DNA from: Aeromonas rivipollensis
Lineage (GTDB): Bacteria > Pseudomonadota > Gammaproteobacteria > Enterobacterales > Aeromonadaceae
Length of the DNA: 64,000 nucleotides
Direction: 5' to 3'
Assembly (NCBI RefSeq): GCF_037811135.1
Contig: NZ_CP149130.1
Span: forward strand, 2,662,501 to 2,726,500
This document shows, one piece after another, positions 9,214 through 50,002 of the stretch (within the stretch, counting starts at the first letter, position 1; every line of letters starts with the position of its first letter). The notes below the pieces were generated by a model. That model ran no database searches, was not told where the DNA came from, and saw nothing but the letters and a program-made list of their open reading frames with translations. Made by a program: the position numbers and the translations under genes.

Positions 9214-10884
9214 ATGGAACGCGAAGCAATGGAATTTGATGTCGTCATCGTCGGTGGCGGCCCGGCTGGCCTCAGTGCCGCCATCGCATTGAAGCAGCAG
9301 GCCCCGGATCTCTCGGTCTGCCTGCTGGAGAAGGGGGCTGAAGTGGGTGCCCATCTGCTCTCCGGCGCCCTGCTCGATCCCGTCGCCCTCAAGGAGCTGC
9401 TGCCGGCGCGCTGGCAAGAGGCGCCCCTCGGCGTACCGGTCACGGATGATCGGGTCCATCTGCTGCAAAGCGCGTCGCGCGCCCTGCAACTGCCCAACTG
9501 GGCTGTGCCCCCGCGCATGCACAACGACGGCTGCCACATCATCAGCCTCGGCAACCTCTGCCGCTGGCTCGCCCGGGAGGCCGAGGCGCTCGGTGTCGAG
9601 ATCTACCCCGGCTTCGCGGCGAGTGAACTCATAGTGGAAGAGAGCAGGATAAGAGGGGTGCTGACAGGGGATCTGGGTCTCGACAAAGAGGGCAACCCAA
9701 AGCCGGATCACGTGCCCGGCATGGCGCTCTATGGCCGCTACACCCTGTTCGCCGAGGGGGCCCGCGGCCACCTCGGCAAGCAGCTTGGCGCCCTGTTCAA
9801 GCTGGAAAATACCGCCCAGCCCCAGCACCAACCCCAGCACTATGCCATCGGCTTCAAGGAGCTGTGGCAGGTGCCCGCCGGTCAGTCTCATCCCGGCCGA
9901 GTGCTGCACGGCAGCGGCTGGCCGCTCGGGGAGCTGCGGGGCAGCAAGAGTCAGGGGGGCTTTTACCTCTATCATCTGGCGGACAACCAGGTAGCGGTCG
10001 GCCTCATCGTCGATCTCAACTACCAGAATCCCTGGCTCAGCCCCTTCGACGAGTTCCAGCGCCTCAAGCACCACCCTCTCATCGCCGCAACACTGCAGGG
10101 GGGGGAACGCATCAGCTACGGCGCCCGGGCCATCACCAAGGGGGGCTGGCACTCATTGCCCCGCATGCATTTCCCCGGCGGCCTGCTCATCGGCTGCGAT
10201 GCGGGCACCCTGGATTTCTCCCGCATCAAGGGCATTCACACCGCCATGAAGTCCGGCATGCTGGCGGCCGGCACTGTCGCCATGAGCCTGCGCGGTGGCG
10301 ATGAGGGCGGGCGGGATCTCGCCGAGTATGGCGATGCGCTGCAACAGAGCTGGCTGGCCCGGGAGTTGATCGCGGCCCGCAACTTCGGCGCCGCCCTGCA
10401 CCGCTTCGGTCCCTGGCTCGGCGGCGCCTTCAACTGGCTGGAGCAACGGCTGTTTACCCGCGCCTCTCCTTTTACCCTGCTGGACAAGGAGCCGGACTAC
10501 CGCCAACTGCGCCTGGCCAGCCGCTGCCAGCCCATCGACTACCCCAAGCCGGACGGGCGACTCAGCTTCGACAAGCTCTCTTCGGTGTATCTGGCCAACA
10601 CCAGCCACGACGAGGATCAGCCCTGCCACCTCAAGTTGCAGGACGAGCGCATCCCGGTGGCGGTCAACCTGCCCACCTGGGCGGAGCCCGCCCAGCGCTA
10701 CTGCCCGGCCGGCGTCTTTGAGATCATTGAGGCCGAGATCCCGGAGACGGAGGGCCAGCCTCGCTTGCAGATCAACGCGGCCAACTGCATCCACTGCAAG
10801 ACCTGCGACATCAAGGATCCCAGTCAGAATATCGTCTGGACCCCGCCTCAGGGAGGCTCGGGTCCCAACTACCCCAATATGTGA
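9214..10884 (+). CDS. Electron transfer flavoprotein-ubiquinone oxidoreductase
   Basis: This inner-membrane flavoprotein passes electrons from ETF to ubiquinone. The 556-residue protein has an N-terminal FAD dinucleotide fold (DVVIVGGGPAGLSAAIALK), the family segment around GCDAGTLDFSRIKGIHTAM, and a C-terminal 4Fe-4S site made by Cys in RYCPAG plus the CIHCKTCDIKDP cluster. It ends with QGGSGPNYPNM. The ATG at 9214 has AGAGG upstream; ATG 9229 is an alternative. It is divergent from etfBA, sharing the LiuR-type site. The last 26 codons are the first unit of an unusual tandem array that continues past the stop codon. Confidence 0.94.
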   Translation: MEREAMEFDVVIVGGGPAGLSAAIALKQQAPDLSVCLLEKGAEVGAHLLSGALLDPVALKELLPARWQEAPLGVPVTDDRVHLLQSASRALQLPNWAVPPRMHNDGCHIISLGNLCRWLAREAEALGVEIYPGFAASELIVEESRIRGVLTGDLGLDKEGNPKPDHVPGMALYGRYTLFAEGARGHLGKQLGALFKLENTAQPQHQPQHYAIGFKELWQVPAGQSHPGRVLHGSGWPLGELRGSKSQGGFYLYHLADNQVAVGLIVDLNYQNPWLSPFDEFQRLKHHPLIAATLQGGERISYGARAITKGGWHSLPRMHFPGGLLIGCDAGTLDFSRIKGIHTAMKSGMLAAGTVAMSLRGGDEGGRDLAEYGDALQQSWLARELIAARNFGAALHRFGPWLGGAFNWLEQRLFTRASPFTLLDKEPDYRQLRLASRCQPIDYPKPDGRLSFDKLSSVYLANTSHDEDQPCHLKLQDERIPVAVNLPTWAEPAQRYCPAGVFEIIEAEIPETEGQPRLQINAANCIHCKTCDIKDPSQNIVWTPPQGGSGPNYPNM

Positions 10885-11273
10885 GATAGGCAAACGGATG
10901 TGTGACACCAAGGATGCTCAGCCCCAGAACATCGTCTGGACCCCGCCTCAAGGAGGCTCGGGTCCCAATTACCCCAATATGTGAGATAGGCAAACGGGCC
11001 TGTGACATCAAGGATGCTCAGCCCCAGAATATCGTCTGGACCCCACCTCAGGGAGGATCCGCCCAATATGTGAGATAGGCAAACGGATGTGTGACATCAA
11101 GGATGCTCAGCCCCAGAACATCGCCTGGGCACCGCCCCAGGGAGGCTCGGGGCCGAACTATCCCAATATGTGAGATAGGCAAACCGGCTAGTGACATCAA
11201 GGATGCTCAGCCCCAGAACATCGTCTGGACACCACCTCAGGGAGGCTCTGGCCCCAACTACCCCAATATGTGA
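10804..11273 (+). repeat. 100-bp tandem array of ETF-QO 3'-end copies (5 units)
   Basis: Unit 1 is the real gene end (10804-10884). Four copies follow: 10885-10984, 10985-11073, 11074-11173 and 11174-11273. The full unit is exactly 100 bp: a 16-base spacer starting GATAGGCAAAC, 27 codons homologous to the gene's last 26, and TGA. Unit 3 has lost 11 bp. Copies 2-5 read KDAQPQN where the gene reads KDPSQN, so they are not simple recent slippage products of unit 1. Each unit shifts the frame by one base, so read-through cannot produce a fused repeat protein. Units 2 and 4 have an ATG directly before the copied segment (10898, 11087), giving possible 28-codon ORFs. Confidence 0.95.
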
Positions 11274-11564
11274 TCCCTGAGATCCCAGGGATCCTGGTCA
11301 ATTTACCTCTCGGCATTCCCCCGTCCGGGCCGGGTTATGCCGGCCCAGGCAGCTGCTCCGACCTCGCCGTTTTTTTGAGCAAACAGGCTGAACCCCCGAT
11401 GAATAGCCCCTGACAAGCGGTGCCCGCCCCTGTATAGTTCGCCGCATTCAGGTTGTCCATCGGCCTCGTTATGCTATTTCATGGGATCGCTTTCTGTGCG
11501 ATCTAGGGCCGCATGAACCTGTGCAACCATCCCTGATTACCCACGACTTCTTAAGGGGGGACAG
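11274..11564 (+). other. Non-coding region between the repeat array and corA
   Basis: I see no gene here. A perfect stem GGGCCGG/CCGGCCC (11327-11333 with 11340-11346) may end the ETF-QO transcript, although no T-run follows directly; a T-rich stretch occurs about 25 bases later. The corA promoter should lie in the more AT-rich part before 11560, and AAGGGGGG precedes the corA ATG. Confidence 0.4.
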
Positions 11565-12512
11565 ATGATCACCGCCTACATTCTCAATAACAAGGTGCTG
11601 GACATAGTCACGCTCGGGCCGGACGACATAGTCCCCGACAACACCGTCTGGCTGGATGCCTACAAGCCGGACACGGCGGAGCGAGAATGGTTGACGGGCC
11701 TCTTCCTGGAAGAGGTGCCCGACAAGGAAGAGCTGGACGACATCGAGGCCTCCGCCCGTTTCTACTGGGACACCGATGGTCTGCACATCCACTCCCTGTT
11801 CCCCCAGCGGATCGGCCGCGACACCAAGGGTGTCCACGTCTCCTTTACCCTGCGCAACAACCTGCTGATCAGCATTCGCGAGGATGACATCGGCCTGGTG
11901 CGCCTGCTGCGCCACTACATGCGTCAGGACAGGCTGGAGGTGGAGAACGCCCTCGACATCCTGCTGGAGGTGCAGAACCTCAAGGTGGAGTACCTCTCGG
12001 ACCTCATCGAGGATGGCTACAAGACCCTGGAGAACACCGCCGATCAGATCTTCGAGCCGGATCAGATCAACTCCATGCTCAAGGAGCTGATGGCCCAGGA
12101 AGAGGCCAACGGCCAAATCCGTCTCTCCCTGCACGATACCCGCCGTGCCCTGCGCTTCCTCAAACGCAGCCTGCGCCAGCGGATGACAGGGGAACAGAAC
12201 AAGTGGATCGACGAGATGTTGCACGACGTGGAGTCCCTCTTGCCCCACACCCAGTTCCTGTTCGACAAGATCAACTTCCAGCTGGAGGCCTCCATGGGGG
12301 TGACCAATCTGGAGCAGAACAAGGTGATCAAGATCTTCTCGGTGGCCGCGGTGATCTTCCTGCCCCCCACCCTGATCGCCAGCATCTACGGCATGAACTT
12401 CGGCCGCATGCCGGAGCTCGCCTGGGAGTATGGCTATCAGATGTCCCTGGTGCTGATGGTGATGTCGTCGCTCGGCACCGGCCTCTTCTTCAAGCGGAAG
12501 GGCTGGCTGTAA
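11565..12512 (+). CDS. corA: CorA-family magnesium/cobalt transporter
   Basis: The 315-residue protein matches the length of enterobacterial CorA. A long soluble N-terminal domain rich in acidic and helical segments is followed by two C-terminal membrane helices, with the selectivity motif YGMNFG at about residue 277 between them and a positively charged C-terminus (FKRKGWL). CorA forms a pentameric channel for Mg2+, Co2+ and Ni2+ in the inner membrane. AAGGGGGGACAG lies directly before the ATG. It is a single gene with its own promoter. Confidence 0.92.
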   Translation: MITAYILNNKVLDIVTLGPDDIVPDNTVWLDAYKPDTAEREWLTGLFLEEVPDKEELDDIEASARFYWDTDGLHIHSLFPQRIGRDTKGVHVSFTLRNNLLISIREDDIGLVRLLRHYMRQDRLEVENALDILLEVQNLKVEYLSDLIEDGYKTLENTADQIFEPDQINSMLKELMAQEEANGQIRLSLHDTRRALRFLKRSLRQRMTGEQNKWIDEMLHDVESLLPHTQFLFDKINFQLEASMGVTNLEQNKVIKIFSVAAVIFLPPTLIASIYGMNFGRMPELAWEYGYQMSLVLMVMSSLGTGLFFKRKGWL

Positions 12513-15387: not shown

Positions 15388-15445
15388 GCATTTGGGCCCA
15401 CAGCGCCCTACCCCATAACCTCTGTTTATTCATGGAGTTTTGACA

Positions 15446-17419
15446 ATGCAGTTGCAGCATGGCGTATTTCGTTTGAACCCGATTTTGCTCTCCCTCGGCC
15501 TGCTGGCCGTACCTGGCCTGGCCCAGGCAGAGTCGGTCAAGGCCAACGAGACCATGGTGGTCACCGCCACCCAGACCAAGCACACCGAGCTGTCCGCCCC
15601 GGCCAGCGTCTCGGTGGTGACCCGTGCCGATCTGGACAAGATGAACGTCAACAACATCGGCGATGCCCTCAAGCACGTGCCGGGTGTCAACATCGTCTCC
15701 ACCAACCCCACCGGCCGCAACGAGATCAAGATCCGTGGCATGGGGGGTGACTACACCCTGCTGCTGATCAACGGCAAGCGGGTCAACGCCCGCGAGACCC
15801 TGGGCAGCGCCTACGGCAACGACTTCGACTTGAGCTCCATCCCCATGGCCGCCATCGAGCGCATCGAGGTGATCCGTGGCCCCGTCTCCTCCCTATACGG
15901 GGCAGATGCCCTGGGCGGCGTGGTCAACGTGATCCTGCGCCAGGCCAGGGAGAAGACCGAGGCCGCCGTCGGTTACACCCACAGCATGCCCACCAAGGGA
16001 GATGGCGGCGATGCCAACCAGGCCAGCGCCTATGTTTCCGGCGCCCTCATCGACAACAAGCTGCTGGGCAGCGTGGTGGTGGAAGGCTATCAGCGCGACA
16101 ACTGGAAGAGCGATCAGTCCAACAACCCGGACGCCGATGCCCTGGAAAAACGGGAAGTGGTCAACGTGCTGACCAGCCTGAAGTGGCTGGTGGCAGACAA
16201 CCAGGACATCGACTTCGATCTGGGTTACAACCAGAACGACATGGACAGCTACTTCAACAACGTGCCCCGCGCCCCGACCGCACCGGCCACCCCCCACAAC
16301 GTGCAGAACCTGGATCGCCTGAGTCTGGGGCTGACCCACAACGGCCGTTGGGAGCACTTCGACAGCCGCGCTCGTTACTACTTCGAGCAAATCGATCTGA
16401 TGGATGACTCCCAGCTCAATGGCGGCGCCGCCGATGTCACCCAGACCAACAACACTGTGGACGGTCAGGTCAGCGGTTACCTGGGTGATCACCTGCTCAC
16501 CTCCGGTGCCGAGCTGCGCAAGACAGAGCTGGAGCACAGCCGCAACATCGCCAATGGCAGCGTGGATGCGACCCAGAGCGCCGTCTACCTGCAGGATGAA
16601 TTCGGCTTCGGCGATCTGGCCCTGACCCTCTCCGGTCGTCTGGATCACCACGAGACCTATGGCACCGAGTTCAGCCCGCGCGCCTATGCCCTCTACACCC
16701 TGACCGACGAGTGGGTGATCAAGGGGGGCGCCGGCAAGGCGTTCAAGGCCCCGACTCTGGCCCAGTCCAGCGAAGGCTTCTCCACTACCGCCTGTCGCGG
16801 CGCCTGCCAGGTCATCGGCAACCCGGATCTGAAGCCGGAAACCGCCGTCAGCTACGAGCTGGGCACCGCCTACGAGGCCGCGCGCTTCGGCGCCGGGGTG
16901 ACCGGCTTCCACAACGAGATCGAGGATCTGATCCAGAGCGATCAGTGGGGCCCGGGCTACCGTCCGACCGTGATGACCTACCTCAACGTCAAGGAGGCCC
17001 GCATCAAGGGTCTGGAGCTGACCGGCTGGGTCGACGTGCTGGACAACGTGAAGCTGACCGGCAACTTCACCCTGCTGGACTCAGTGGACAGGAGCACTGG
17101 GGACGATCTGGCCAAGACCCCGGATCACACCGGCAACCTCGGCCTGGACTGGCAGGCGAGCGAGCTCGTCAGCGCCAACCTGGCCTGGCAATACGTTGGC
17201 AGCCAGGTGCTCAAGGTACCGGCCCGCAACTCCCAGGCGTTCACCTCCAAGCACTACCAGACCCTGGACGTCAACACCAACTGGACCGTCACCCCGGCGC
17301 TGGACTTCAAGCTCGGCATCACCAACCTCACCAACACCAAGCGTGACGAGGTGGCCACCGACGCCGACTTCATCCTGGAAGGACGCACCGTCTACGCAGG
17401 TGTCGATTACAAGCTGTAA
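15446..17419 (+). CDS. fstC: TonB-dependent catechol siderophore receptor (probable FstC)
   Basis: The 657-residue outer-membrane receptor has a signal peptide ending at GLAQA-ES, a TonB-box-like segment (ETMVVTATQ), a plug domain with KIRGMGGDYTLLLINGKRV and IRGPVSSLYGADALGGVVNV, and a 22-strand-type barrel ending in an aromatic-rich strand with terminal leucine (VYAGVDYKL). Its plug resembles FepA/BfeA/IrgA receptors for catecholates. Position beside the amonabactin genes makes it the likely amonabactin receptor, called FstC in Aeromonas; the name rests on context. The ATG at 15446 has GGAG eight bases upstream. A strong terminator follows, so the ABC genes downstream may need their own promoter or read-through. 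Confidence 0.85.
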   Translation: MQLQHGVFRLNPILLSLGLLAVPGLAQAESVKANETMVVTATQTKHTELSAPASVSVVTRADLDKMNVNNIGDALKHVPGVNIVSTNPTGRNEIKIRGMGGDYTLLLINGKRVNARETLGSAYGNDFDLSSIPMAAIERIEVIRGPVSSLYGADALGGVVNVILRQAREKTEAAVGYTHSMPTKGDGGDANQASAYVSGALIDNKLLGSVVVEGYQRDNWKSDQSNNPDADALEKREVVNVLTSLKWLVADNQDIDFDLGYNQNDMDSYFNNVPRAPTAPATPHNVQNLDRLSLGLTHNGRWEHFDSRARYYFEQIDLMDDSQLNGGAADVTQTNNTVDGQVSGYLGDHLLTSGAELRKTELEHSRNIANGSVDATQSAVYLQDEFGFGDLALTLSGRLDHHETYGTEFSPRAYALYTLTDEWVIKGGAGKAFKAPTLAQSSEGFSTTACRGACQVIGNPDLKPETAVSYELGTAYEAARFGAGVTGFHNEIEDLIQSDQWGPGYRPTVMTYLNVKEARIKGLELTGWVDVLDNVKLTGNFTLLDSVDRSTGDDLAKTPDHTGNLGLDWQASELVSANLAWQYVGSQVLKVPARNSQAFTSKHYQTLDVNTNWTVTPALDFKLGITNLTNTKRDEVATDADFILEGRTVYAGVDYKL

Positions 17420-17430
17420 GCTCTCCCAGC

Positions 17431-17459
17431 GGGAGCCCCGAGATCGGGGCTCCCTTTTT
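17431..17459 (+). terminator. Strong terminator after the receptor gene
   Basis: GGGAGCCCCGA pairs with TCGGGGCTCCC over a two-base turn (in practice a four-base loop) and is followed by TTTTT. It lies just before the first permease gene. Confidence 0.9.
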
Positions 17460-17493
17460 GCGTTTCTACTGCCCCTATCAAAGGAGTTGTTGC

Positions 17494-18510
17494 GTGCTCA
17501 GATACCAAGCTCAGCTGTTCTGGCTCGGAGTGCTGCTCCTCTTACTACTGATTTCTCTGTCACTGGCCACCGGCGCCGGTGTCTATGGTGGCCGCGAGGT
17601 CGCCGGTTTCCTGCTGGGCGATCCCGCCCTGGTGGCCGATGAAAAACTCGCCATGATAGTCAATACATTGCGATTGCCCCGCACCCTGGCGGCCCTGGTG
17701 GTGGGGGTCTGTCTCGCACTCGCCGCCTCCATGCTGCAAAGCGCCACCCGCAACCCCCTGGCCGAACCCGGCCTGCTCGGGGTCAACGCCGGTGCCGTCT
17801 TCGCCCTGGTGATAGGGCTGACCTATTTCGGTGTCGAATCCGCCTACGGTTACCTGCTCTGGTCCGGCATGGGGGCCCTGCTCGGCAACCTCATAGTGCT
17901 GGGTCTCGGCCTCATGGTAGGGCGCTCCAACCCCCTCAAGCTCATCCTGGTGGGGGTCGCCCTCTCCGCCACCTTCGGCGGCCTCTCCAACTTCCTGCTG
18001 CTCTCCAACCGGGTAGTGCTGGAACAGTTCCGCTTCTGGAACTTAGGGTCGCTCGCCGCCTCCAGCCTGGAGTCCGTGCTGACGGTGATCCCCTTCGCGC
18101 TGGCCGCCCTGCTGCTGACTCTGGCGCTCTGCCGTCAGCTCACCCTGATGCAGATGGGGGACAACCAGGCCCAGGCGCTCGGCATCCGGCCGACCCGGGT
18201 GCGCATCGGCGTGCTGCTGGCCGCCACCCTGTTCACCGCCTGCGCCATCGCCATCGCCGGTCCCATCGGCTTCGTCGGCTTCCTCGCCGCCTACTGCGCC
18301 CGCCTGGTGGAGCCGGTGCGCCTGGCCATCCAGGTGCGCTTCTCCGCCCTGTTCGGGGTGCTGTTCCTGCTCGGTGCCGACATACTGGCGCGCTGGCTGC
18401 TGCAGCCGTTCGAGTTGCCCAACGGCGTCATTCTGGCGCTGATCGGCGCCCCCGTGCTCATCCTGGTGGTGCGCAGCGGCGGCTTCCGCTCCCTGCTGGC
18501 CGTCAAATAA
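17494..18510 (+). CDS. Ferric siderophore ABC transporter permease (FecCD family, FepD-like)
   Basis: The 338-residue protein has the FecCD permease pattern: about nine to ten membrane helices, RLPRTLAALVVGVCLALA, QSATRNPLAEPGLLGVNAGA, LGIRPTRVR and the coupling segment AGPIGFVGFLA. It would form the inner-membrane channel with the next gene. I place the start at the GTG at 17494, because AAGGAG sits seven bases upstream and a hydrophobic helix follows; an earlier TTG lies inside the upstream terminator. It is the first gene of a permease-permease-ATPase operon. Confidence 0.88.
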   Translation: MLRYQAQLFWLGVLLLLLLISLSLATGAGVYGGREVAGFLLGDPALVADEKLAMIVNTLRLPRTLAALVVGVCLALAASMLQSATRNPLAEPGLLGVNAGAVFALVIGLTYFGVESAYGYLLWSGMGALLGNLIVLGLGLMVGRSNPLKLILVGVALSATFGGLSNFLLLSNRVVLEQFRFWNLGSLAASSLESVLTVIPFALAALLLTLALCRQLTLMQMGDNQAQALGIRPTRVRIGVLLAATLFTACAIAIAGPIGFVGFLAAYCARLVEPVRLAIQVRFSALFGVLFLLGADILARWLLQPFELPNGVILALIGAPVLILVVRSGGFRSLLAVK

Positions 18511-18521
18511 GGTGCCCTCCC

Positions 18522-19598
18522 ATGAATAACGCCATAAACATGAGGGCCCCCCTGCCCGAGACCCCAGTCCCCACCGGCACCCTCTGCCTGCGCCTCGGCC
18601 GCCGCACCCTGCTGCTGGAGCGCCGCGCCTGGCTTATCACCCTCGCGCTGATCGTCGCACTGGTGCTGCTCTCCCTGCTGGCCCTGACCCTGGGCTCCGG
18701 CAAGATCACCATGATGGGTGTCGTCCAGACACTGCTTGGGGAGGGGAGCCGGCTCGACCAGGTGACGGTGTTCAAGATCCGGCTGCCGCGCATCGTCGCC
18801 GTGCTGGTGGCCGGCGCCGCCATGGGCCTCTCCGGCTGCCTGGTGCAGACCCTGGTCCGCAATCGCCTCGCCACCCCAGACATGATAGGGGTCAACGAGG
18901 GGGCCTCCCTGGCCATCATCATCTTCTCCCTCTATCTGACCCTGGGCAGCTGGCCCTGGTGGGCCGCGCCCTTCGGTGCCCTGTTTGCCGCCGCCGTGCT
19001 CTATGCCCTGTGCAACAAGCCGGGGGAGCAGGGCTACCTGTTCGTGGTGATCGGCATAGGCGTCTCCGAGCTGATGAACGCCATCGGCCAGTTCGCCATG
19101 TCCACCCAGTCCCTGGTGCACCTCACCAGCCTCTACCTCTGGAACATGGGCAACTTCGTCGGCCAGGGCTATGGCACTGTGCTGCCGGTGGGGATACTGA
19201 TCCTGCTCATCTGCCCCTGGATCCTCTATCTCTCCCGCGCCCTCGGCGTGCTGCGCCTAGGGCCCGTCACCGCCAGAACCCTGGGGGTCAACGTGAACCG
19301 GGTGCAGCTCGGGGTGCTGGCCCAGGCCATACTGGTGGCGGCCCTTGGCACCGCCATCGGCGGCCCCGTGGTGTTCATCGCCATGGCGGCCCCCATACTC
19401 GCCTCCTGGCTCTCCCGGGATCGCATAGTGCCGCTCTGGATTGCGGCCCTGTGCGGCGCCCTGATGCTGCTCGCCAGCGACACCCTGGTGCGGGTGCTGG
19501 CCAGCCCCCACGAGGTGGCCACCGGCATCATGACCCGTATCCTCGGCGGCCTGCTGCTGCTGTTCATCCTTATCAAAGACAGGCAGAGAGCCGACTGA
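18522..19598 (+). CDS. Ferric siderophore ABC transporter permease (FecCD family, FepG-like)
   Basis: The 358-residue second permease shows the same family motifs (RLPRIVAVLVAGAAMGLSGCLVQ, RNRLATPDMIGVNEGA, LGVNVNRVQ, IGGPVVFIAMAAP). It has an extra polar N-terminus of about 35 residues before the first helix. It begins 11 bp after the preceding permease stop, so the two are cotranscribed and probably form a heterodimeric channel as FepD-FepG do. The ATG at 18522 is the first in-frame start after GGTGCCCTCCC; ATG 18540 is an alternative. Confidence 0.88.
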   Translation: MNNAINMRAPLPETPVPTGTLCLRLGRRTLLLERRAWLITLALIVALVLLSLLALTLGSGKITMMGVVQTLLGEGSRLDQVTVFKIRLPRIVAVLVAGAAMGLSGCLVQTLVRNRLATPDMIGVNEGASLAIIIFSLYLTLGSWPWWAAPFGALFAAAVLYALCNKPGEQGYLFVVIGIGVSELMNAIGQFAMSTQSLVHLTSLYLWNMGNFVGQGYGTVLPVGILILLICPWILYLSRALGVLRLGPVTARTLGVNVNRVQLGVLAQAILVAALGTAIGGPVVFIAMAAPILASWLSRDRIVPLWIAALCGALMLLASDTLVRVLASPHEVATGIMTRILGGLLLLFILIKDRQRAD

Positions 19599-19641
19599 TG
19601 ATGCACTCCATCCTTTTCCAAGACCGACAAGGGGCCCTCCT

Positions 19642-20469
19642 ATGACCCTCTGCGTGAATAACCTGCGTTTCGGCTATCAGCACAAGCCCGTGTTTGACGA
19701 CGTCTCCTTCACCCTGCCCAAAGGCAAGCTGGTGGGCATCGTCGGCCCCAACGGGGGTGGCAAGTCCACCCTGCTCAAACTGCTGGCGGGCCAGGAGCAG
19801 CCCCAGTCCGGGGAGATACTGCTCAAGGGCAGGCCCCTGGGTAGCTATGGCATGAAGGCCCTGGCCCGGGAGCTGGCCTACCTGCCCCAGCGCCCCCTGG
19901 TGCCGCCTGGCATCCGGGTCGAACAGCTGGTGCAGTACGGCCGCCATCCCCATCAGGGTTGGTTCACCCAGTGGAGCGAGGAGGACGCCCGCATGGTGGA
20001 CTGGGCCAGGCAGCGGATGCAGCTCGATGCCATCTGGCAGCAGAGCGCCAATTCGCTCTCCGGCGGCCAGGCCCAGCGGGTCTGGCTCGCCATGGTGCTG
20101 GCCCAGGATGCGGATCTCATCTTGCTGGACGAGCCCACCAGCGCCCTGGACATAGGCCACCAGACCGAGGTGATGGAGGCCATCCACAGGGTCGCCGCCG
20201 AGGGCAAGACGGTGCTCATCGTCATCCATGATCTCGCCACCGCCGCCCGCTACTGCGACGAGCTGATTGCCCTGGGGGACGGCGGCATCCAGGCCATGGG
20301 CCCGGCCCGGGAGGTGGTGACCAAGTCCCTCATCGATCGTCTCTACCAGACAGACGTGGACATATTGCACGCCCCCGGCGATGGCGCCCCTGTCATAGTG
20401 CCCCGCAGGCGCTGTGAAGAGGTACCGCGCCGGCGCCAGGATACGGCCCCGAGCAAGCAGTCGGCCTGA
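19642..20469 (+). CDS. Ferric siderophore ABC transporter ATP-binding protein (FepC-like)
   Basis: The 275-residue ATPase has Walker A GPNGGGKST, signature LSGGQAQRVW, Walker B LILLDEPTSALD and the switch histidine in VIHD, all in iron-siderophore importer arrangement. It energises the two permeases encoded immediately upstream (43 bp gap). The C-terminal tail after about residue 255 is polar and arginine-rich and not part of the ATPase fold. The gene is followed by a terminator shared with the convergent amoD. Confidence 0.9.
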   Translation: MTLCVNNLRFGYQHKPVFDDVSFTLPKGKLVGIVGPNGGGKSTLLKLLAGQEQPQSGEILLKGRPLGSYGMKALARELAYLPQRPLVPPGIRVEQLVQYGRHPHQGWFTQWSEEDARMVDWARQRMQLDAIWQQSANSLSGGQAQRVWLAMVLAQDADLILLDEPTSALDIGHQTEVMEAIHRVAAEGKTVLIVIHDLATAARYCDELIALGDGGIQAMGPAREVVTKSLIDRLYQTDVDILHAPGDGAPVIVPRRRCEEVPRRRQDTAPSKQSA

Positions 20470-20480
20470 GAGAGATAGCA

Positions 20481-20507
20481 AGAAACCGCCTGATGGCGGT
20501 TTCTTTG
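20481..20507. terminator. Terminator between the ABC ATPase gene and amoD
   Basis: AGAAACCGCC pairs with GGCGGTTTCT over TGAT and is followed by TT-G-T on the plus strand. It lies between convergent genes. Confidence 0.8.
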
Positions 20508-20544
20508 TCTGGGCAGTGGCGGGGCACGGGAGCCCGGGCGCCGC

Positions 20545-21270
20545 TCACAGCAGCAAGGTGGTGAGCACGCCCCCCGGCAGCGGTTGCCAGCGCAGGGTAC
20601 AGCGCCAACCGGCCGGCAGGGTCGGCGCCAGGGGGACCTTAAGCTCGAGGGTGAGGGTCTGATCCGTCATCCCCAGCCAGCGGGCATCCAGAAAGTCGAA
20701 ATAGCGCCCCACCCTGGGGTAGAGCGCCTTGAACAGGCTCTCCTTGGCGGAAAACACCAGGGTCAGCCCCCGGGCTCTGTCGAGCCCGAGCGAGCGGACC
20801 CCGGCCTCCAGCCGCCCCCACTCATCCTCATCGACGATGCCGGGCCAGAGCTGCGCCCCTTGGTCGGCCTCGAGCCAGGCCTCCAGATCCAGCCCCATCC
20901 CCCCCTGGGCGGGGCGCACCCCGCAGAGCGCCACCCCCTGCCCCGCCAGCTGGCTGTGGCTGATGCTCCCCTCCATCCCCACAGGCCACAGCGGCTCGCG
21001 GGCGCTCCCGATGGCCACCCCATGCGCGCCCAGTCCGAAGGGGCGCAGGGCCTCACGGGCCGCGAGGCGTCCCGCCAGAAACTCCCCCAACCGCTTGGGG
21101 GCTGCCCCTTGCAGGCTGGCGGGCAGCGCCATGCCCAGGGCCTCGAAGCAGGCGGGGGTAAAGGCGGCGGCATCGAAGCAGATGCGATGGAGGGTCAATG
21201 GGGACGTACCCGGCAGCAGCAGGCGATCCCGTTGCAGAAGGAAGGGAGTGATAGGGGATAAGGGGGGCAT
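20545..21270 (-). CDS. amoD: 4'-phosphopantetheinyl transferase, EntD-like
   Basis: This 241-residue enzyme would attach phosphopantetheine from CoA to the carrier domains of AmoB, AmoF and AmoG. It has the EntD/Sfp motifs: the substrate loop region GSISHS, the Mg2+-binding GLDLEAW and the helix VFSAKESLFKALYP. The ATG at 21270 follows GAGGAG and begins MPPLSP; a 56-codon upstream extension runs through the probable Fur site and is not coding. It is divergent from the binding-protein gene, sharing a control region with a Fur-like box, which ties it to iron starvation. The symbol amoD follows its enterobactin counterpart entD. Confidence 0.88.
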   Translation of the reverse strand: MPPLSPITPFLLQRDRLLLPGTSPLTLHRICFDAAAFTPACFEALGMALPASLQGAAPKRLGEFLAGRLAAREALRPFGLGAHGVAIGSAREPLWPVGMEGSISHSQLAGQGVALCGVRPAQGGMGLDLEAWLEADQGAQLWPGIVDEDEWGRLEAGVRSLGLDRARGLTLVFSAKESLFKALYPRVGRYFDFLDARWLGMTDQTLTLELKVPLAPTLPAGWRCTLRWQPLPGGVLTTLLL

Positions 21271-21334
21271 CAGGGCTCCTCGCAATGGAGCCTTATGGTA
21301 ACAAAATCGCCAGGGCTGGCACCACAAATACAAA

Positions 21335-21349
21335 TGACAATGTTTCTCA
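21335..21349. promoter_or_regulatory. Fur-box-like site between amoD and the binding-protein gene
   Basis: TGACAATGTTTCTCA matches the 7-1-7 Fur consensus at 11 of 14 positions. It lies in the 210-bp divergent region, 65 bp from the amoD start and 132 bp from the other start, so it could control both. Confidence 0.6.
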
Positions 21350-21480
21350 CTTGAGCTTCTGTGGTAGCATGTCCCCGCCCATTTGGACCCCGGTTTTAGG
21401 CTGACTGGCAGGCACGACCAACAGGGGCCGCCCGGCATGGGCCAAGAGTGCCGCCGATTTCACCCATTAAGGATGTAACC

Positions 21481-22419
21481 ATGAAGATCTTCTCCCCCCT
21501 GGCAGCCGCGCTCGTGCTGGCCAGTCTGGTCGGCTTTCAGGCCCAGGCCGGTACTCGCCAGGTGCTCGATGCCAACGGCCAGTCCCAGACAGTCCCCGAT
21601 GATCCCCGGCGCGTCGTGGTGCTGAGCGAGCTCGATCTCGACAGCGCCCTGACCCTGGGGGTGCAACCGGTCGGCACCGTCAACGGCCGCGGCCAGTCCA
21701 CCCTGCCCCGCTATCTGCTGGACAAGGCGGGCAAGGAGATAGCAGTGGTCGGCGATCTGGACAACCCCAATCTGGAGAAACTCATCGATCTGGAGCCCGA
21801 CCTTATCCTGACCGGCCAGACCAAGCCAGAGCTGCTGGCCCTGCTCAAGGAGATAGCCCCCACCGTCGTCACCGGCAACTGGGGCGATCCCTGGAAGACC
21901 GTGTTCAACCGCAGCGCCAATGTGATGAACAAGGAAGCCGAGGCCAAGGCCTTCCTCACCCGGTATGACGCCCGCCTGGCAGAGGCCCGCAGCAAGCTTG
22001 CCAAGCACCAGGGGGAGCAGGTGAGCATAGTGCGCTGGAACCCCAAGGGGCCGAGCTACATGCATGGCGGCACCTTCGCCAGCAGCGTGGTCACCGAGAT
22101 GGGGCTGGCTCGCCCTGCCCACCAGATAGGCGACAAGAGCCCCCACTCCCCGGCCCTGAGCCTGGAGTCCCTCAACCTGCTGGACGGCGACTGGCTGGTG
22201 ATCGGCACCCTCAGCGCCAGCGGCGATGCGGTAGATGCCATGAAGCAAGCCGAGCAGACCCCGGCCTTCCAGCAGCTCGGCGCCATCAAGGGCAAGCGCT
22301 TCGGCGCCGTGGACGGGTCGCTGTGGACCTCCACCGGCGGCCCCCAGGCGGCCCTTAGGGTCATCGACGACGTCGAGCAACTGCTCGCCAAGCCGGACGC
22401 GGCCCCCATCACCCAATAA
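21481..22419 (+). CDS. Ferric siderophore periplasmic binding protein (FepB-like)
   Basis: The 312-residue protein has a signal peptide (LAAALVLASLVGFQAQA, cleaved before GTRQ) and the two-lobed helical backbone layout of class III iron-siderophore binding proteins: DDPRRVVVLSELDLDSALTLG, LIDLEPDLILTG and the C-terminal VDGSLWTSTGGPQAAL. It would deliver the ferric siderophore from the receptor to the permeases encoded a kilobase upstream. AAGGAT precedes the ATG at 21481. It lies alone on the plus strand between amoD and the amo operon. Confidence 0.88.
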   Translation: MKIFSPLAAALVLASLVGFQAQAGTRQVLDANGQSQTVPDDPRRVVVLSELDLDSALTLGVQPVGTVNGRGQSTLPRYLLDKAGKEIAVVGDLDNPNLEKLIDLEPDLILTGQTKPELLALLKEIAPTVVTGNWGDPWKTVFNRSANVMNKEAEAKAFLTRYDARLAEARSKLAKHQGEQVSIVRWNPKGPSYMHGGTFASSVVTEMGLARPAHQIGDKSPHSPALSLESLNLLDGDWLVIGTLSASGDAVDAMKQAEQTPAFQQLGAIKGKRFGAVDGSLWTSTGGPQAALRVIDDVEQLLAKPDAAPITQ

Positions 22420-22444
22420 GTCCGCGTGATTGACCGCCCACAAA

Positions 22445-22470
22445 GAAGCCCGCATTTGCGGGCTTCCTTT
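22445..22470. terminator. Bidirectional terminator between the binding-protein gene and amoH
   Basis: GAAGCCCGC pairs with GCGGGCTTC across ATTT, followed by CTTTTAT on the plus strand and CTTTG on the minus strand. It closes the amo operon as well as the binding-protein gene. Confidence 0.8.
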
Positions 22471-22487
22471 TATCTGCTGTGCGGCGC

Positions 22488-24032
22488 CTACTCCGGCAAG
22501 GGCAGCGCCTTTCTATCCAGTTTGCCGCTGCCGGTCTTGGGCAGGGCATCCAGCAGGATAAGCCGCGCCGGCACCATGTAGTGAGGGAGCGTCGCCTGCA
22601 GCCCCTTGCGCAGGGCCAGCCGATTGAGGGCCACCCCGGCCCTGGCCTCCACATAGCCCACCAGCATGGCGTCGTCCCCCTCGCCCACCAGGCGCACCGC
22701 CGCCTCCTGCACCCCGGCCTGGCGGCGAAGGCCCGCTTCCACCTCGCCCAGCTCGATGCGAAAGCCCCGCAGCTTGACCTGATCGTCGCGCCGCCCCAGA
22801 TAGAGGAAGCGGTCCGCCCCCAGCCGCCGCACCCGATCGCCGGTGCGATAGAGGCGATGGACATCGACCCGCAGGAAGGCCGCCGCCGTCAGGGCAGGCT
22901 TGCGCCAGTACCCCTCGCACAGGGCCGGGCTCTCGATACAGAGCTCGCCGCACTCCCCCTCTGCCACCGGCTGCCCCGCCTCGTCCAGCACCCAGTGACG
23001 ATAGCCGGGCAGGCTGTGGCTGATGGTGATCTGGCCATCAGTCGGTGGCCAGATCACCTCGCTCACCAGGGACCAGACGGTGGCCTCGGTCGGCCCATAG
23101 CAGTTCCACAGCCGCCGGGTGCGGGCACAGAGCTGCTCGGCCAACCCTGAGTCCAGCGCCTCGCCGCCGCACAGGGCGGTGAGGGTATGGCGCCCCTGCC
23201 AACCGGCCTTGAGCAGCATGCGCCAGCAGGCCGGGGTGGCCTGCAGCCAGTTGATGGAGGGGTCGGCCTCGAGCAGCGCCAGCATCCCCAGGGGATCCTT
23301 GTTGTGCTCGCCACCGGCCACCGTCAGCCGGCCACCGCCCCAGAGCGGCCCCAGCATCTCCAGCAGGGAGATGTCGAAGGCCGGGGTGGTGATAAAGAGC
23401 CAGTGACAGTTCGGGGAAAGTCCGAGCCGCTCGCGGATCCCGTCGAGGAAGCAGAGCAGGGCCCGCCGACTGATGACCACCCCCTTGGGTTCGCCGGTGG
23501 AGCCCGAGGTAAACATCATGTAGGCGGCCAGGGCGTCATCCACCCTGGGCCAGGAGAGGGTCCCGCCAGGGGCCGGCCCCTTGAGGGGGCGCAGGGGACA
23601 ACCGAAATCCGGGGCCCCCACCTCGTCGTCGCAGATCACCGCCGACAGGCGCGCCTGACGGGCGATCCCCTGCAGCCGCGCCAGCGGAAAGTCCGGCTCA
23701 AGGGGCACGAAGCAGAGACCGAGGCGCAGGCAAGCCAGCAGGCTGGCCACCAGATCGGGGCTGCGGGAGAGATAGAGACCGACCCGCTCCCCCACCGCCA
23801 GACCCTGCAGGCGAGCGGCAATCCGGCCCACGCGATCATTGAGGGCGCCGTAGCTAAGCCACTGCTCATCTGATCCGCCCTCACTGATGCCCTCCCCGCC
23901 CATACGGATGGCGGGAGCCAGCGGGGTGGCGGCCAGACATGCCGCCAGCCGTTTGCCCAGATTGGCCGCCCCCTCGAGGGGGGCGGGCCGGGCCTGTATG
24001 GCCGGGACCTCATGCCTGATGGTCACTGTCAT
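22488..24032 (-). CDS. amoH: Stand-alone NRPS adenylation domain protein, amonabactin synthesis
   Basis: The 514-residue protein is a single amino-acid adenylation domain with [13 protein letters not shown] (A3), NCYGPTEATVWS (A5), YRTGDRVR (A7), the RGFRIELGEVEA hinge (A8) and a final GSGKLDRKAL (A10). It has no condensation or carrier domain. AmoG's second module has C and T domains but no A domain, so AmoH is the obvious partner loading that carrier in trans. Which amino acid it selects I cannot determine by eye. The ATG at 24032 overlaps the amoG stop as ATGA, so synthesis is probably translationally coupled. The long upstream open frame lies inside amoG. Last gene of the operon. Confidence 0.88.
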   Translation of the reverse strand: MTVTIRHEVPAIQARPAPLEGAANLGKRLAACLAATPLAPAIRMGGEGISEGGSDEQWLSYGALNDRVGRIAARLQGLAVGERVGLYLSRSPDLVASLLACLRLGLCFVPLEPDFPLARLQGIARQARLSAVICDDEVGAPDFGCPLRPLKGPAPGGTLSWPRVDDALAAYMMFTSGSTGEPKGVVISRRALLCFLDGIRERLGLSPNCHWLFITTPAFDISLLEMLGPLWGGGRLTVAGGEHNKDPLGMLALLEADPSINWLQATPACWRMLLKAGWQGRHTLTALCGGEALDSGLAEQLCARTRRLWNCYGPTEATVWSLVSEVIWPPTDGQITISHSLPGYRHWVLDEAGQPVAEGECGELCIESPALCEGYWRKPALTAAAFLRVDVHRLYRTGDRVRRLGADRFLYLGRRDDQVKLRGFRIELGEVEAGLRRQAGVQEAAVRLVGEGDDAMLVGYVEARAGVALNRLALRKGLQATLPHYMVPARLILLDALPKTGSGKLDRKALPLPE

Positions 24033-27000
24033 GATACGGCCTCCGTTTGGCGCACCAGCCAGTGGCGATAGAGCCGGCTGGGGGATGGATGGGCCTTGAG
24101 GGTCTGCAGGGTGAGTGGCACCCGATCCTGCGCAAGCGCCTCGTTGAGGGCCGCCAGCAGGGCGAGCTGCTGCACCGAGTCTATTCCCAGATCCATCAAG
24201 GTTTGCTGCCAGATGCCGGGCACGCCGCAATGGCGCTCCCACAGGGCCACCAGCGCGCGGGCCTCGGCCGGTGGCTGAGCCTGGTCGGACTCTGCTCTTG
24301 TGGCTGCCCCTTGTGCCATCGCCGGGGACGACGCGGCCGCCGCCGGTTTGGCCGGCTGGTTAAGATCCGCCTGCGCCAGCCAGCCGAGCTCGGCCCGCCA
24401 GTCAGCCAGCACCGCCTCGGCCTGGGCCTCGGGGATCTGCTCGCCGTCGAACTCGAGGCGCAGCTGGAGCGTCTCGCCCCGGCTGCTGACCACGAGCGAC
24501 AGAGGAAGCTCCACCTTCTCTACCACGGCGCCAAACTGCGGCACCAGCTGGTAGGGTTCGGGGGTGGCAGGGACCGCCGGCATGGGGTAGTTCTCGAACA
24601 CGAACAGGCTCTGGAAGAGACGCGATCTACCTTTCGTCAGCGCCGCCAGCGACTGGGTGCCGTGCTCATTGAGCGCCATCAAATCCGTCTGCAACTGGGC
24701 GATATGCTCGGCCAGGGTCAGCTCGGTGCGCCACTCCAGCGCCAACGGCAGGCTGTTGATGTAGAGCCCGACGCTCGCGGTGATCCCCTCGATGGGATAG
24801 TCCCGGCCCGGGGTCACGTTGCCCACCAGGGTGACAGCATCGCCAGAGCGGCGAGCCAGCAGACGGTGCCATGCATATTGGGCCAAGAGGCCCGCGGTCA
24901 CCCCAAGGTCGCGGGCACGGTGGGCGAGCAAGGTAGCCACCTCGGTCGGCAGCGCCGTGGCGCACACCGCCGGTCGCTGCTGGGTATGGCGCCCGCTTGA
25001 GCGAGCGTCCAGGGTCACCCCGAACAGGCAGGCGAGATCGTTAGGCGTTGCCAGCAGCTCGCCCCGCCCCTGCCAGTAAGCCTCGGCGCTGCGGGCTTGG
25101 CTCGCGATATGGCGGCCAAATTCGAGCCAGGCGGTATCCGGCTCGCCCTGCGGCAGCAGGCCGTTCATCAGCGCCTGATAGCCGCGATGCAAGGACCCCA
25201 GCAACACGGGGCCGCTCCAGCCATCCAGTACGCCATGATGGGCGCTGAAGACAACCTTGTGGTGATCGGGGGCCACTTTGAAGCAGGCAAGGCGCAGCAG
25301 GGGGGCTTGCTCGAGCGGGATCGGGCGGGCCAGATCCTGCTCCCGGTAGGCCTGGACCCGTGCCTCTGCATTTTCCACTTCAGACAAGTCCTCATAGTGG
25401 AATGGCAACTCGGCATGCTTGAGGATGCGCTGGAGCGCGACCCCGTCCGCCAGCACCAGCTCGCTGCGCAGGGCCGGCCAGCGGGCGATCTGCCCCTGCC
25501 AGGCCTGACGGTAGACGGCCAGGTCCAGTGGCTGGCGGTACTCCATCTCGGTCTGCAGGTGGTAAGCCGTGTCACGAGGCGCCAGCGCCCTGTGATGGAA
25601 CATGCTCTGCTGAAGCGAGGTCATGGGCAGCAATGTCTCCACCTCGCGCCCGCTCAGCACCCGATCGAGCGCAGCTTGCGAGAGAGCGATCTCCGGGAAG
25701 TCGCTCGGGGTATGGCGCGGGGCCTTCTGGGCGCAGCAGTGTTCCACCAGCGCCGTCAGGTTGTCCGCCAGCCGCGCCATCAGGGCGTCGCTCCCTTGCT
25801 GGTTGAGGGCGCCCACCTGGCGCAGGGTGAGGCGGCCGTTGTAGACGCCCCCGTGCAGGCTCACCAGCTCCCTCGGCAGGTTGTCAGGGGAACTGGGTGC
25901 CCCCGGTGCCAGCGGCAGGGGGTGCCAGGGCTGAGCGGCCTCGCCCTGATGGCTGACCCCCAGGTAGTTGAAGACCAACAGGGCCTGGGGCAGCTCAGAC
26001 CCACGAGGGTGGTGCAGCCGCAGGGCGTTGAAGCCCACCCCCTTGTCCGGCACGGCGCGCAGCTGCTCTTTGGTGGCGCACACCAGCGCATCCCACGCCC
26101 CGGCATCCGCCAGCGCCAGCGGGTAGGTGCTGGTGAACCAGCCCAGGGTGCGGCTCACGTCTAGTTCAGCATCGATGGCCTCACGGCCGTGGCCTTCCAA
26201 CATCACGCAGTGACGGTTGCCGTAACCCAGCTCGCTCAGGGTACGAGTCAGTGCCGCCAGCAGCAGGTCGGGCACCCGGGTGAAGTAAGCCTGGTTGGCG
26301 GTGTCGATAAGACGGGCCGTGGTCTCCTGACTCAGTTGCAGCAGGCTGGCGGCGGCGCGGCCATCGGTGGCACGCGCCGCTTCCAGCAGGTGACCCTGGC
26401 TGCCTTCCCCCTGAGCCAGCCAGAAGCCAAGCTGCTCCTCTTCCCGTTTGGCGTAGGCCGCCAGCCCCTCGCCCCACTGGCGATAGCTGCTGCCCTTGGC
26501 AGGCAGCGGCTCGCCCCTGCTCACCCGTGCCAGATCTTCGGCCAGGATGCGCCAGGAGACCGCATCGATGACCAGATGATGGAAGGCGAGGAAGAGCCCC
26601 TCCACCGCCTCGCTCTCCCCCTCGAGGGAGAGATTGCGCAGGCGAGCCCAGGCCAGGGTATGGCCGCTGGCAGGGTCGAGATCCCCCTGCAGCTCGGTCA
26701 GGCGGGCCTGCAGCCCGGCCTCATCGAGATTGGCGGCATCCAGGGTCGGCAGCGGCGGCAATGGCAGTTCGGCCAGGTAGCGCTGGCCGGTCGGGGTCAC
26801 CGCCAGGCGCAGGGCATCGTGGTGCTGGCGCAGGGCATCCAGCCAGCCGCGCAGGGCCTCATCGTCCACCCCGGCCGGCAGGCGCAGGATCACCCCCTGA
26901 TTCCAGTGACCGGACTTGGCAAAGCCCTGCTCGAAGAACCAGTGCTGGATGGGGTGGAGCGGGAACTCGCCGGTCAGGCTGCCCTGCTCGCTCCTGTGGC

Positions 27001-30000: not shown

Positions 30001-30286
30001 TGTTGTAGAGGTGGGAAGCCTCCTCGTACTGCTCGATAAACCAGAGCCCGCTCTGGGACGAGGAGAGCGGCCCCTGCCGGGCGCCCTCGGCGACGATAGG
30101 TGCCTCGAAGGCTGCACGGGCCGCCAGGCAGCGCACCAGCTCATCCTTGTGGGCCTTGATGGTGGCACCGATGGCCGGTGTCACCGCCTCCTTGCTCGAC
30201 TGGGAGATAAGCTGGCCCTTGTCGTTCAGCGCCAGCTTCACTCCCTGCCGTTCCAGCTGTTTCAACAGCAAAATCATATTGTTCAT
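24029..30286 (-). CDS. amoG: Non-ribosomal peptide synthetase AmoG (docking-C-A-T-E-C-T)
   Basis: This 2085-residue synthetase extends amonabactin. In order: an N-terminal TubC-like docking domain (residues 1-55); a condensation domain with HHIISDGW near 205; an adenylation domain with [11 protein letters not shown] near 682; a carrier with LGGDS near 1050; an epimerization domain with HHLVIDAVSW near 1239; a second condensation domain with HHGVLDGW near 1684; and a C-terminal carrier with LGIDS near 2034. The second module has no adenylation domain, to be supplied by AmoH. The epimerization domain implies one D-residue. There is no thioesterase or reductase. It starts 14 bp after the amoA stop and overlaps amoH by four bases. 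Confidence 0.93.
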   Translation of the reverse strand: MNNMILLLKQLERQGVKLALNDKGQLISQSSKEAVTPAIGATIKAHKDELVRCLAARAAFEAPIVAEGARQGPLSSSQSGLWFIEQYEEASHLYNMPVYFRVKGELDTAALEFAFDHLFARHPSMRTRFIKDEAGRGAQEILPHTPFTLQIEDVSEQPAAEREAYVARRVREEIGRPFSLTKGDLSRVHLIRLGSREHVLLITQHHIISDGWSVKNMFADLKRAFLAHQNREPLQVSELPLTYIDYAHWFNSDRFLDYHAEFKPFWVDRLGGSPEVHGLPLDKPRPAHQDSGGELVFSTIDNDLWESFKRLCQRHSTSNFIGLHALFALLMVRQSGEKEVVIGTPLAYRERHEIESLVGFFVNTLVLRTQLSGKPSFVDYLQQCREEDLAAFDHQLYRFEALAEAIGADRTTAINPIFQIMLVYQAKVDFNDLIPGCQLVEETSPVLPAKTDISVKVTELMDSVRVDWLFATALFERETIQALADRLLYLMRAVVAAPETDIWQLPLEAGTDQAAMAAQLADLPPDYPSRDTLLCHIERRAIQLPDALAVSDSADALTYGELEVRANRLAHWLQAQGVTPGAAIGIQARRDVAFVIALLACWKAGAAYVPLDPAYPAERLAHILGDASIALVLGGEPDARLAEAIKGTDAGYHNLHQLALDKMPTSTPALPRDAAMLAQIIYTSGSTGLPKGVMVEQGSLVNLMADHGERIALDQDGAMFNCMSLSFDAGNMTSLLPLYCGAALHFGEPGEGVISAAIACAASHMILPTALLANLLPPTDLGSLKAIGFGGEACPSSLVERWGARVALFNMYGPTECTVTALCARLTPGAPITIGRPVNNLKALILDEAGNLCPVGVPGELCLAGLGLARGYLNLPERTEEAFIELALAERTHRLYRTGDRALLRRDGNIQYLGRIDKQIKLRGYRIEPGEIETRLAELCPVIRQIKVVVQEGRLLAYACLQAGASEPDGDALLQRAGECLPEYMVPARLCWLPEMPLTPNGKLDLRRLPAIVWQQSKGEPQNELEQTVLAIWQGVLKQPLGVEDDFFRLGGDSILSIQLTTRLRDAGLHCSVKDVFEAKTVRRLCRQLGQQQAVSHRSEQGSLTGEFPLHPIQHWFFEQGFAKSGHWNQGVILRLPAGVDDEALRGWLDALRQHHDALRLAVTPTGQRYLAELPLPPLPTLDAANLDEAGLQARLTELQGDLDPASGHTLAWARLRNLSLEGESEAVEGLFLAFHHLVIDAVSWRILAEDLARVSRGEPLPAKGSSYRQWGEGLAAYAKREEEQLGFWLAQGEGSQGHLLEAARATDGRAAASLLQLSQETTARLIDTANQAYFTRVPDLLLAALTRTLSELGYGNRHCVMLEGHGREAIDAELDVSRTLGWFTSTYPLALADAGAWDALVCATKEQLRAVPDKGVGFNALRLHHPRGSELPQALLVFNYLGVSHQGEAAQPWHPLPLAPGAPSSPDNLPRELVSLHGGVYNGRLTLRQVGALNQQGSDALMARLADNLTALVEHCCAQKAPRHTPSDFPEIALSQAALDRVLSGREVETLLPMTSLQQSMFHHRALAPRDTAYHLQTEMEYRQPLDLAVYRQAWQGQIARWPALRSELVLADGVALQRILKHAELPFHYEDLSEVENAEARVQAYREQDLARPIPLEQAPLLRLACFKVAPDHHKVVFSAHHGVLDGWSGPVLLGSLHRGYQALMNGLLPQGEPDTAWLEFGRHIASQARSAEAYWQGRGELLATPNDLACLFGVTLDARSSGRHTQQRPAVCATALPTEVATLLAHRARDLGVTAGLLAQYAWHRLLARRSGDAVTLVGNVTPGRDYPIEGITASVGLYINSLPLALEWRTELTLAEHIAQLQTDLMALNEHGTQSLAALTKGRSRLFQSLFVFENYPMPAVPATPEPYQLVPQFGAVVEKVELPLSLVVSSRGETLQLRLEFDGEQIPEAQAEAVLADWRAELGWLAQADLNQPAKPAAAASSPAMAQGAATRAESDQAQPPAEARALVALWERHCGVPGIWQQTLMDLGIDSVQQLALLAALNEALAQDRVPLTLQTLKAHPSPSRLYRHWLVRQTEAVS

Positions 30287-49955: not shown

Positions 49956-50002
49956 GTTAGCGTCCTGTCGTGGGGTGTTTGTCGTGCTTGTGATAATGCA
50001 AG

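Follow-up and report, generated by a model that had tools for sequence, protein, structure and literature searches.

The gene for electron transfer flavoprotein-ubiquinone oxidoreductase (ETF-QO) of Aeromonas rivipollensis is followed by tandem copies of its own 3′ end, and we consider it most likely (with a probability of about 0.8) that these go back to an ancestral tandem duplication whose units have since recombined with one another and with the gene, in a process of concerted evolution that has left an array without a selected function. According to this reading, a tandem duplication of ~100 bp, reaching on its right side to the stop codon or its vicinity, would have arisen over the 3′ terminus of the ETF-QO gene in an ancestor of Aeromonas; the duplicated segment would never have been functional as a gene and would have been tolerated because the upstream gene stays intact. 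Unequal recombination between units would then have altered the copy number, up or down, species by species, and the units would also have recombined with the gene end, by gene conversion or unequal crossing-over, over its last ~17–19 codons and probably in both directions. Mostly silent variants would survive the passage through the gene, giving the copies a coding appearance, and the gene end would receive silent variants back and so turn into a synonymous hot spot. The patterns described below show that the copies are present in variable number, descend from a common source and exchange with the gene, that one strain pair has the hot spot and that other loci are affected; how and in which direction the recombination proceeds, how the duplications originate and that function is lacking are what we infer from them.

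Organization of the array behind the ETF-QO gene

Within the window, i.e. the whole 64,000-nucleotide stretch of DNA under study, the ETF-QO gene lies on the forward strand at positions 9214..10884, and its 556-residue open reading frame matches the Pfam families PF05187 (Fer4_ETF_QO, 1.7e-47) and PF21162 (ETFQO_UQ-bd, 5.1e-37); two ETF subunit genes are found beside it on the opposite strand. This gene is the source of the copies, and its own tail, comprising the last codons with the stop (10804..10884, forward strand), was aligned to all of them. The stop codon is followed by four units on the same strand, measuring in order 100, 89, 100 and 100 bp and spanning 10885-11273, which hold head-to-tail copies (73–84 bp) of the last ~27 codons of the gene and the stop, as a partial tandem duplication of a gene would. 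Unit 1 (10885..10984) consists of a diverged 16-nt start and a tail copy (10901-10984) with the stop retained and an in-frame ATG opening 28 codons; unit 2 (10985..11073) has a tail copy at 11001-11073 with an 11-nt deletion; unit 3 (11074..11173) has a tail copy at 11090-11173 with two amino-acid changes and again an in-frame ATG (28 codons); and unit 4 (11174..11273) has a tail copy at 11191-11273 with the stop retained. Tandem repeat analysis with TRF delimits the array to 10800-11273 (period 100, 4.9 copies, score 633), and the 23-mer CCCAATATGTGAGATAGGCAAAC occurs four times in it, with 0 occurrences expected from 100 shuffles.

These data agree in most respects with the initial annotation of this DNA, whose four near-copies of the gene end 3′ of the real ETF-QO stop are confirmed by sequence and TRF. 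The 100-bp period that it gave holds for three units and fails for unit 2, which has 89 bp as a result of the 11-nt deletion. Over the final 17 codons the last copy (its copy 5) differs from the gene at four sites, all of them third positions, unit 3 (its copy 4) has four synonymous changes in addition to two changed codons (V to A and T to A), and the ATG-started 28-codon frames of units 1 and 3 (its units 2 and 4) are present. Also, the KDAQPQN variant is found in all four copies and is absent from the ETF-QO gene itself. The 16-base spacer reported before each copy, on the other hand, resembles a diverged continuation of the gene segment rather than foreign DNA in an alignment made by eye, a resemblance that is clearest at the UTRA/GntR and metA loci discussed below and weak at ETF-QO.

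The rest of the inserted block (11274..11356, forward strand) has no recognisable copy and runs to a TCCGACC motif. The right neighbour, a gene for a CorA-family transporter (11565..12512, forward strand; Pfam PF01544, 8.3e-59), is conserved and served as anchor of the locus across species. Between the two, the segment 11357-11564 is conserved in the Aeromonas loci that we inspected, with the TCCGACC motif, a T-run, a promoter-like site and a long leader; it has no Rfam match reaching the gathering score and could be a regulatory leader. The promoter-like site (CTGACA, 17 nucleotides, TATAGT; 11410..11438, forward strand), identified solely by its match to the consensus and with similar sequence in the other inspected loci, likely serves the downstream gene, and the array lies entirely upstream of it.

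Distribution and common ancestry of the copies

We recovered the ETF-QO locus in 36 of 37 Aeromonas genomes, which represent one genome per species apart from the same-species pair formed by the window's own genome (G000) and G023. In a profile search (E < 0.05), 22 of these 36 loci proved to have one or more copies 3′ of the gene; A. caviae G007 is counted among the 22 although weak (E 0.03), and A. piscicola G021, with an assembly gap at the array site and a remnant visible there, is unscored. Unit number, which the initial annotation had proposed to compare across the genus, varies from one to four recognised copies per copy-bearing locus; draft assemblies may give wrong copy numbers, as one locus contains an N run and one contig ends inside the array. 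Outside the genus, tail copies were found in none of 56 loci of other genera, and no tandem tail matches in the 96 non-Aeromonas genomes that have a tail match among 274 genomes of the class.

The copies carry a segment that is 3 nt longer than its counterpart in the gene, GATGCTCAGCCCCAG-like and encoding KDAQPQN. Compared by eye, all but one of 37 copies have a segment of this type, although two of these 36 have lost 1 nt and one has a separate gap of 3 nt; the remaining copy is devoid of the region. The segment is present in none of 35 Aeromonas gene ends, which bears on the earlier proposal to look for the variant in intact genes of other strains. Neither was it seen in 57 retrieved loci, all but one of them outside Aeromonas: 55 have KDPxQ, and in 2 the reading failed. 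The occurrence of this segment in nearly all copies and in no gene end indicates that the copies descend from one ancestral duplication, and their common ancestor is older than the species. The order of gains and losses along the tree is only indicative, as this is a midpoint-rooted tree of a single gene.

Additional information on the edge of the duplication comes from the TCCGACC motif, which directly follows the ETF-QO stop in the copy-less species G005, G020 and G024, and as TCGGACC in G009. The distance from stop to motif is thus 0 in these four and 472 in the window's genome. Of the 22 loci with copies, 19 have the motif at the far end of the block, 174–472 bp from the stop, preceded by TGA in 9 loci and by TGC in 10; the other three loci are G010 and G018 (motif match inside a copy) and G030 (contig ending earlier). 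These positions would fit a duplication edged at the stop codon, without proving it. In G024 (L055) we noted that the ETF-QO match breaks near residue 352, which denotes a pseudogene or an assembly error.

Tail copies behind other genes

Aeromonas tends more widely to gain and retain short tandem duplications close to the ends of genes, and the ETF-QO array is one such case. When 464 kb of the window's genome were scanned (the window and 20 sampled stretches, with genes named by eye from translations), tail copies were also seen behind a UTRA/GntR-type regulator, a panC-like gene, an amino-acid permease, metA, a yqhD-like alcohol dehydrogenase and others. Among the 37 genomes searched, copies of the yqhD-like tail are restricted to G000, G023 and G002, and copies of the metA tail (E 0.05) to these and G019. 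The yqhD-like gene differs from its own copy at 1 of 93 sites in G002, 9 of 93 in G000 and 7 of 93 in G023; in G002, gene and copy share a local allele that is absent from eight other gene tails and two other copies. Between G000 and G023 the yqhD-like tail has 7 differences in 93 sites, all at third positions, versus 7 in 356 upstream (p 0.013).

In a census of six Aeromonas genomes (1.264 Mb, 1066 called genes), repeat clusters (offsets 50–250) number 21 at 3′ ends and 5 at 5′ ends, with a further 10 lying between genes and 8 within genes. The nine control genomes (1.0 Mb, 777 genes) have none at 3′ or 5′ ends, 3 between genes, all in E. coli and one of them a tRNA pair, and 6 within genes; the gene caller was home-made, and its yield of genes is low for some controls, such as G108 with 18 in 60 kb. 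When the ETF-QO array, which is the ascertained case, and the cluster at 63779-63935, counted as 3′ though by eye it belongs to the start of the next gene, are left out, the contrast is 19/1066 versus 0/777 (Fisher 5e-5, with the same denominator). A location effect was considered as cause of the 3′ bias and rejected, as random segments of 95 bp that do not lie within genes fall at 3′ ends in 20%, at 5′ ends in 20%, between genes in 56% and at both kinds of end in 4% of the cases, against the 21, 5 and 10 clusters observed. The 3′ excess is uneven and rests mostly on the window's genome, which contributes 13 of the 21 clusters, followed by G010 with 4, G035 with 2, G036 and G015 with 1 each and G016 with 0; in the five genomes besides G000, 8 of 19 non-internal clusters are at 3′ ends, and G035 has more clusters between genes (6) than at 3′ ends (2). 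Also, copies that are refreshed remain recognisable, so that the share of 3′ ends in the census can be inflated.

A stronger statement would be that the duplication process of Aeromonas prefers 3′ ends, often with an edge at the stop codon, and that the tail copies produced in this way are reservoirs which keep silent variants turning over at housekeeping-gene ends across the genome; we regard this as unlikely. The stop-codon edge would, if true, point to a mechanism coupled to the ending of translation or transcription and not to random slippage, and the yqhD-like and metA blocks do start at the stop codon when compared by eye with relatives that lack copies. However, only 4 of 16 aligned repeat pairs end within 2 nt of the stop, which lowers the odds of a stop-edged process, even considering that several of the 16 pairs span more than one unit and are uninformative on the edge. 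At the permease junction the homology extends 34 nt beyond the stop, and other pairs end 9 to 22 nt before it.

Some repeats deserve a description of their own. The cluster at 63779-63935, a tandem duplication with a period of 89 whose copies have diverged to 75% over 72 bp, lies at a gene junction with an overlapping stop and start (ATGA) and hypD/hypE-like neighbours; judged by eye, what it duplicates is the beginning of the gene downstream. In G035 (L181, 4452-4614), about six 23-bp repeats of the last codons and stop are seen by eye behind a glyceraldehyde-3-phosphate dehydrogenase-like gene, which indicates that tail arrays occur in short units too. In E. coli K-12 (L209) there are two arrays of ~93-bp units with copies 97% alike, at 39756-40115, between yahG and yahI over the annotated yahH, and at 49591-49972, after prpB; judged by their position, these are not gene-tail copies.

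Coding signature of the copies

The initial annotation had proposed that the copies hold sequence formerly under coding selection, and this is borne out by the distribution of their variants over codon positions. In the last 17 codons (30 of the 37 units), copy alleles found in at least two species are distributed over positions 1/2/3 as 3/3/22, whereas those found in one species are distributed as 14/8/5 (Fisher 1e-5); for all 37 units the values are 11/9/26 and 16/15/4 (Fisher 3e-5). Likewise, copy alleles that are also found in some gene end give 3/2/24, and those found in no gene end 14/9/3. No clear third-position excess is observed in the copy-specific first 10 codons (shared 6/2/7, one-species 3/7/7). 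As the bias is restricted to alleles common to species or gene ends and is absent from one-species alleles, the coding signature stems from sequence that has been cycling through the gene, and mutations that stay within the copies are unfiltered, which argues against selection on translation of the units.

Selection of the copies, be it for short peptides translated from them or for an RNA element in the 3′ untranslated region, is very unlikely, even if two units hold 28-codon frames with an ATG and copies persist across much of the genus. A stop is located at the end of the match or at most 4 nt away in 25 of 37 units (23 by a stricter count), and an in-frame ATG-started frame of at least 20 codons is found in 8 of 37 units, or 15 when GTG and TTG are counted. 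A role of the array as RNA, contemplated in the initial annotation, finds no backing either: the four units fold no better than shuffled sequences (z of 0.26, 0.30, −1.33 and 1.40), no Rfam family reaches the gathering score, and there is no terminator-like site in 10700-11700. The copies do not evidence the constraint of their own that a small-peptide gene or a structured RNA would have, and the array probably has no selected function.

Exchange between gene and copies

Gene and copies exchange sequence over roughly the last 17–19 codons, as the distribution of their variants shows. The ETF-QO gene ends of G000 and G023 differ at 7 of 51 sites; the gene end of G000 differs from one copy of G023 at 1 of the 51 sites, and that of G023 from one copy of G000, which has the 11-nt deletion, at 2. 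The near-matching haplotypes are thus swapped in the two genomes, which suggests transfer, presumably into the gene, as from a silent donor cassette. In G010 and G036, gene and own copy both have an unusual Leu codon at a site that is Val or Ile in most genes, which shows that the variants shared by gene and copy are mostly, and not only, silent.

Across 18 species, the distance from the gene end to its nearest own copy averages 0.099; when copies are permuted among species the mean is 0.151 (sd 0.008), and none of 10,000 permutations is as low as the observed value. On average, therefore, the gene is closer to its own copies than to those of other species. Taken singly, 7 of the 18 species have one of their own copies as the nearest, alone or in a tie, and in four the own copy ranks poorly (9th in G001, 17th in G002 and in G008, 11th in G023), which indicates that exchange is episodic. 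The yqhD-like gene offers a second instance of exchange, near-identity of gene and own copy being limited there to G002. With one genome per species, exchange within a population is documented by the single pair G000/G023. The exchange of the gene with its own old duplicates explains the diverged alleles, and the earlier view that simple slippage is insufficient is upheld. Ordinary homologous recombination, by which gene ends would pass from one species to another, may be a further contributor.

The synonymous hot spot at the gene end

Between G000 and G023, synonymous differences affect 8 of the last 19 codons and 37 of 515 in the body of the ETF-QO gene (Fisher 5e-5), and the differences in the tail are all silent. 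When the gene is divided into segments, the terminal one (nine fourfold sites) is the most diverged among 29 non-basal genomes, as well as among 85 close pairs of copy-bearing species. However, the hot spot extends beyond the copy-bearing species, which counts against the exchange account: in the seven closest copy-less veronii-like pairs the terminal segment has 0.365 against a gene mean of 0.153, a value equalled by 2 of 268 other segments, while in 15 such pairs 47 of 251 other segments are as high as the terminal one. Also in five species treated as basal (G005, G006, G009, G020 and G027) the terminal segment is above average, with 13 of 204 other segments matching it. The copy-less veronii-like species may have shed their copies only recently.

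Fast evolution of gene ends in general was considered and rejected: in 37 other genes of the window, when pooled, tails (69/626) and bodies (1641/14636) do not differ, though six of the 37 have a tail excess at p < 0.05. Of the 38 genes, ETF-QO has the smallest p for tail excess (0.0003).

Integrating elements, donor cassettes and slippage

A different origin of the silent differences, suggested in the initial annotation as capture of foreign 3′ ends, would be a site-specific element with the gene end as its target, each integration supplying a synonymous replacement tail and the old tails remaining after loss of the element. Elements of this kind are known: e14 at icd in E. coli integrates in the 3′ end of the gene and carries a replacement tail, resulting, as in the array, in a gene-end duplicate behind the gene that differs at silent sites. 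In agreement with such an origin, the block starts at the stop codon at ETF-QO and two other genes. However, the distance from stop to CorA is 195–680 bp in 34 of 36 Aeromonas loci (the other two being interrupted, one by an assembly gap and one by the end of its contig within the array), which leaves no integrase-sized insertion, and no inserted element, as searched for in relatives (one genome per species), is seen across these 34 loci. Matches of the array or tail to phages and viruses are equally lacking, as the array matches none of 50,697 phage records, and neither an ETF-QO relative nor the exact tail pattern was found in viral contigs. Matches to 83 plasmid records, with 12 of the best 20 of the 83 annotated as ETF-QO, are taken as ordinary ETF-QO genes, and an Aeromonas caviae record of 4.9 Mb filed as plasmid has no tail copy at E 1e-3. 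Unlike in the case of e14 and icd, no element or integrase was thus found at the ETF-QO site and several unrelated genes carry tail copies; furthermore, the copies trace to one ancestor and exchange with the gene. Capture by an integrating element is thus extremely unlikely.

We attribute an equally slim chance to the copies being a set of donor cassettes that keeps the gene end variable or repairable, with exchange itself under selection. The passage of haplotypes between gene and copies and the variability of the gene end would agree with this, but the variation is mostly silent and results in no evident phenotype, and many species have decayed copies or none. Scarcely credible, finally, is an old slippage duplication without exchange, the gene-like silent changes being only imported from gene ends of other species, as gene ends of different species are in some cases alike, those of G000 and G018 differing at 2 of 51 sites, but the mean own gene-copy similarity is above every permutation and the yqhD-like gene of G002 and its nearly identical copy have a local allele in common.

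Relation to known systems

The concerted evolution of a tandem duplication with the gene in front of it, which we favour, can be compared with a few systems. The tyrT repeats of E. coli begin with the 3′ end of the tRNA gene and, like the array, are tandem repeats that include the 3′ end of the upstream gene; they differ in concerning a tRNA gene and in having a longer unit. Our searches of the open-licence literature gave no pertinent paper on this array or on the duplication of gene tails in Aeromonas. Concerted evolution of prokaryotic paralogous genes is the subject of PMC6053082, and there, as in the array, copies within a genome are more alike than their age predicts; by its abstract it deals with paralogous genes, whereas in Aeromonas a non-working tail of ~80 bp exchanges with the end of a functional housekeeping gene, in which it gives rise to a local synonymous hot spot. 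In tprK of Treponema pallidum, silent donor cassettes feed the expressed gene by gene conversion (PMC10063172), and the likeness to the ETF-QO array consists in silent copies that donate sequence to an expressed gene. The tprK donors are reported to change the protein and serve antigenic variation, whereas the changes retained in Aeromonas are mostly silent, with no use evident, and the array units sit directly behind the gene.

A non-working scrap of DNA behind a gene can thus raise the silent-site divergence of the last codons of that gene, and such gene ends can mislead strain typing as well as codon-usage and selection tests. With 21 clusters at 3′ ends in 1066 genes versus 0 in 777, Aeromonas is a natural test of how short tandem duplications originate, survive and recombine in bacteria.

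Further features of the window and its genome

Two other features were noted. A very long gene of the window's genome (L165, 2190-13188) has about 37 tandem repeats of 297 bp and encodes a giant repeat protein. Within the window, 15440-30286 is a siderophore-like locus in which a TonB-type receptor, an iron ABC transporter and large NRPS genes are recognised by eye from the open reading frames.
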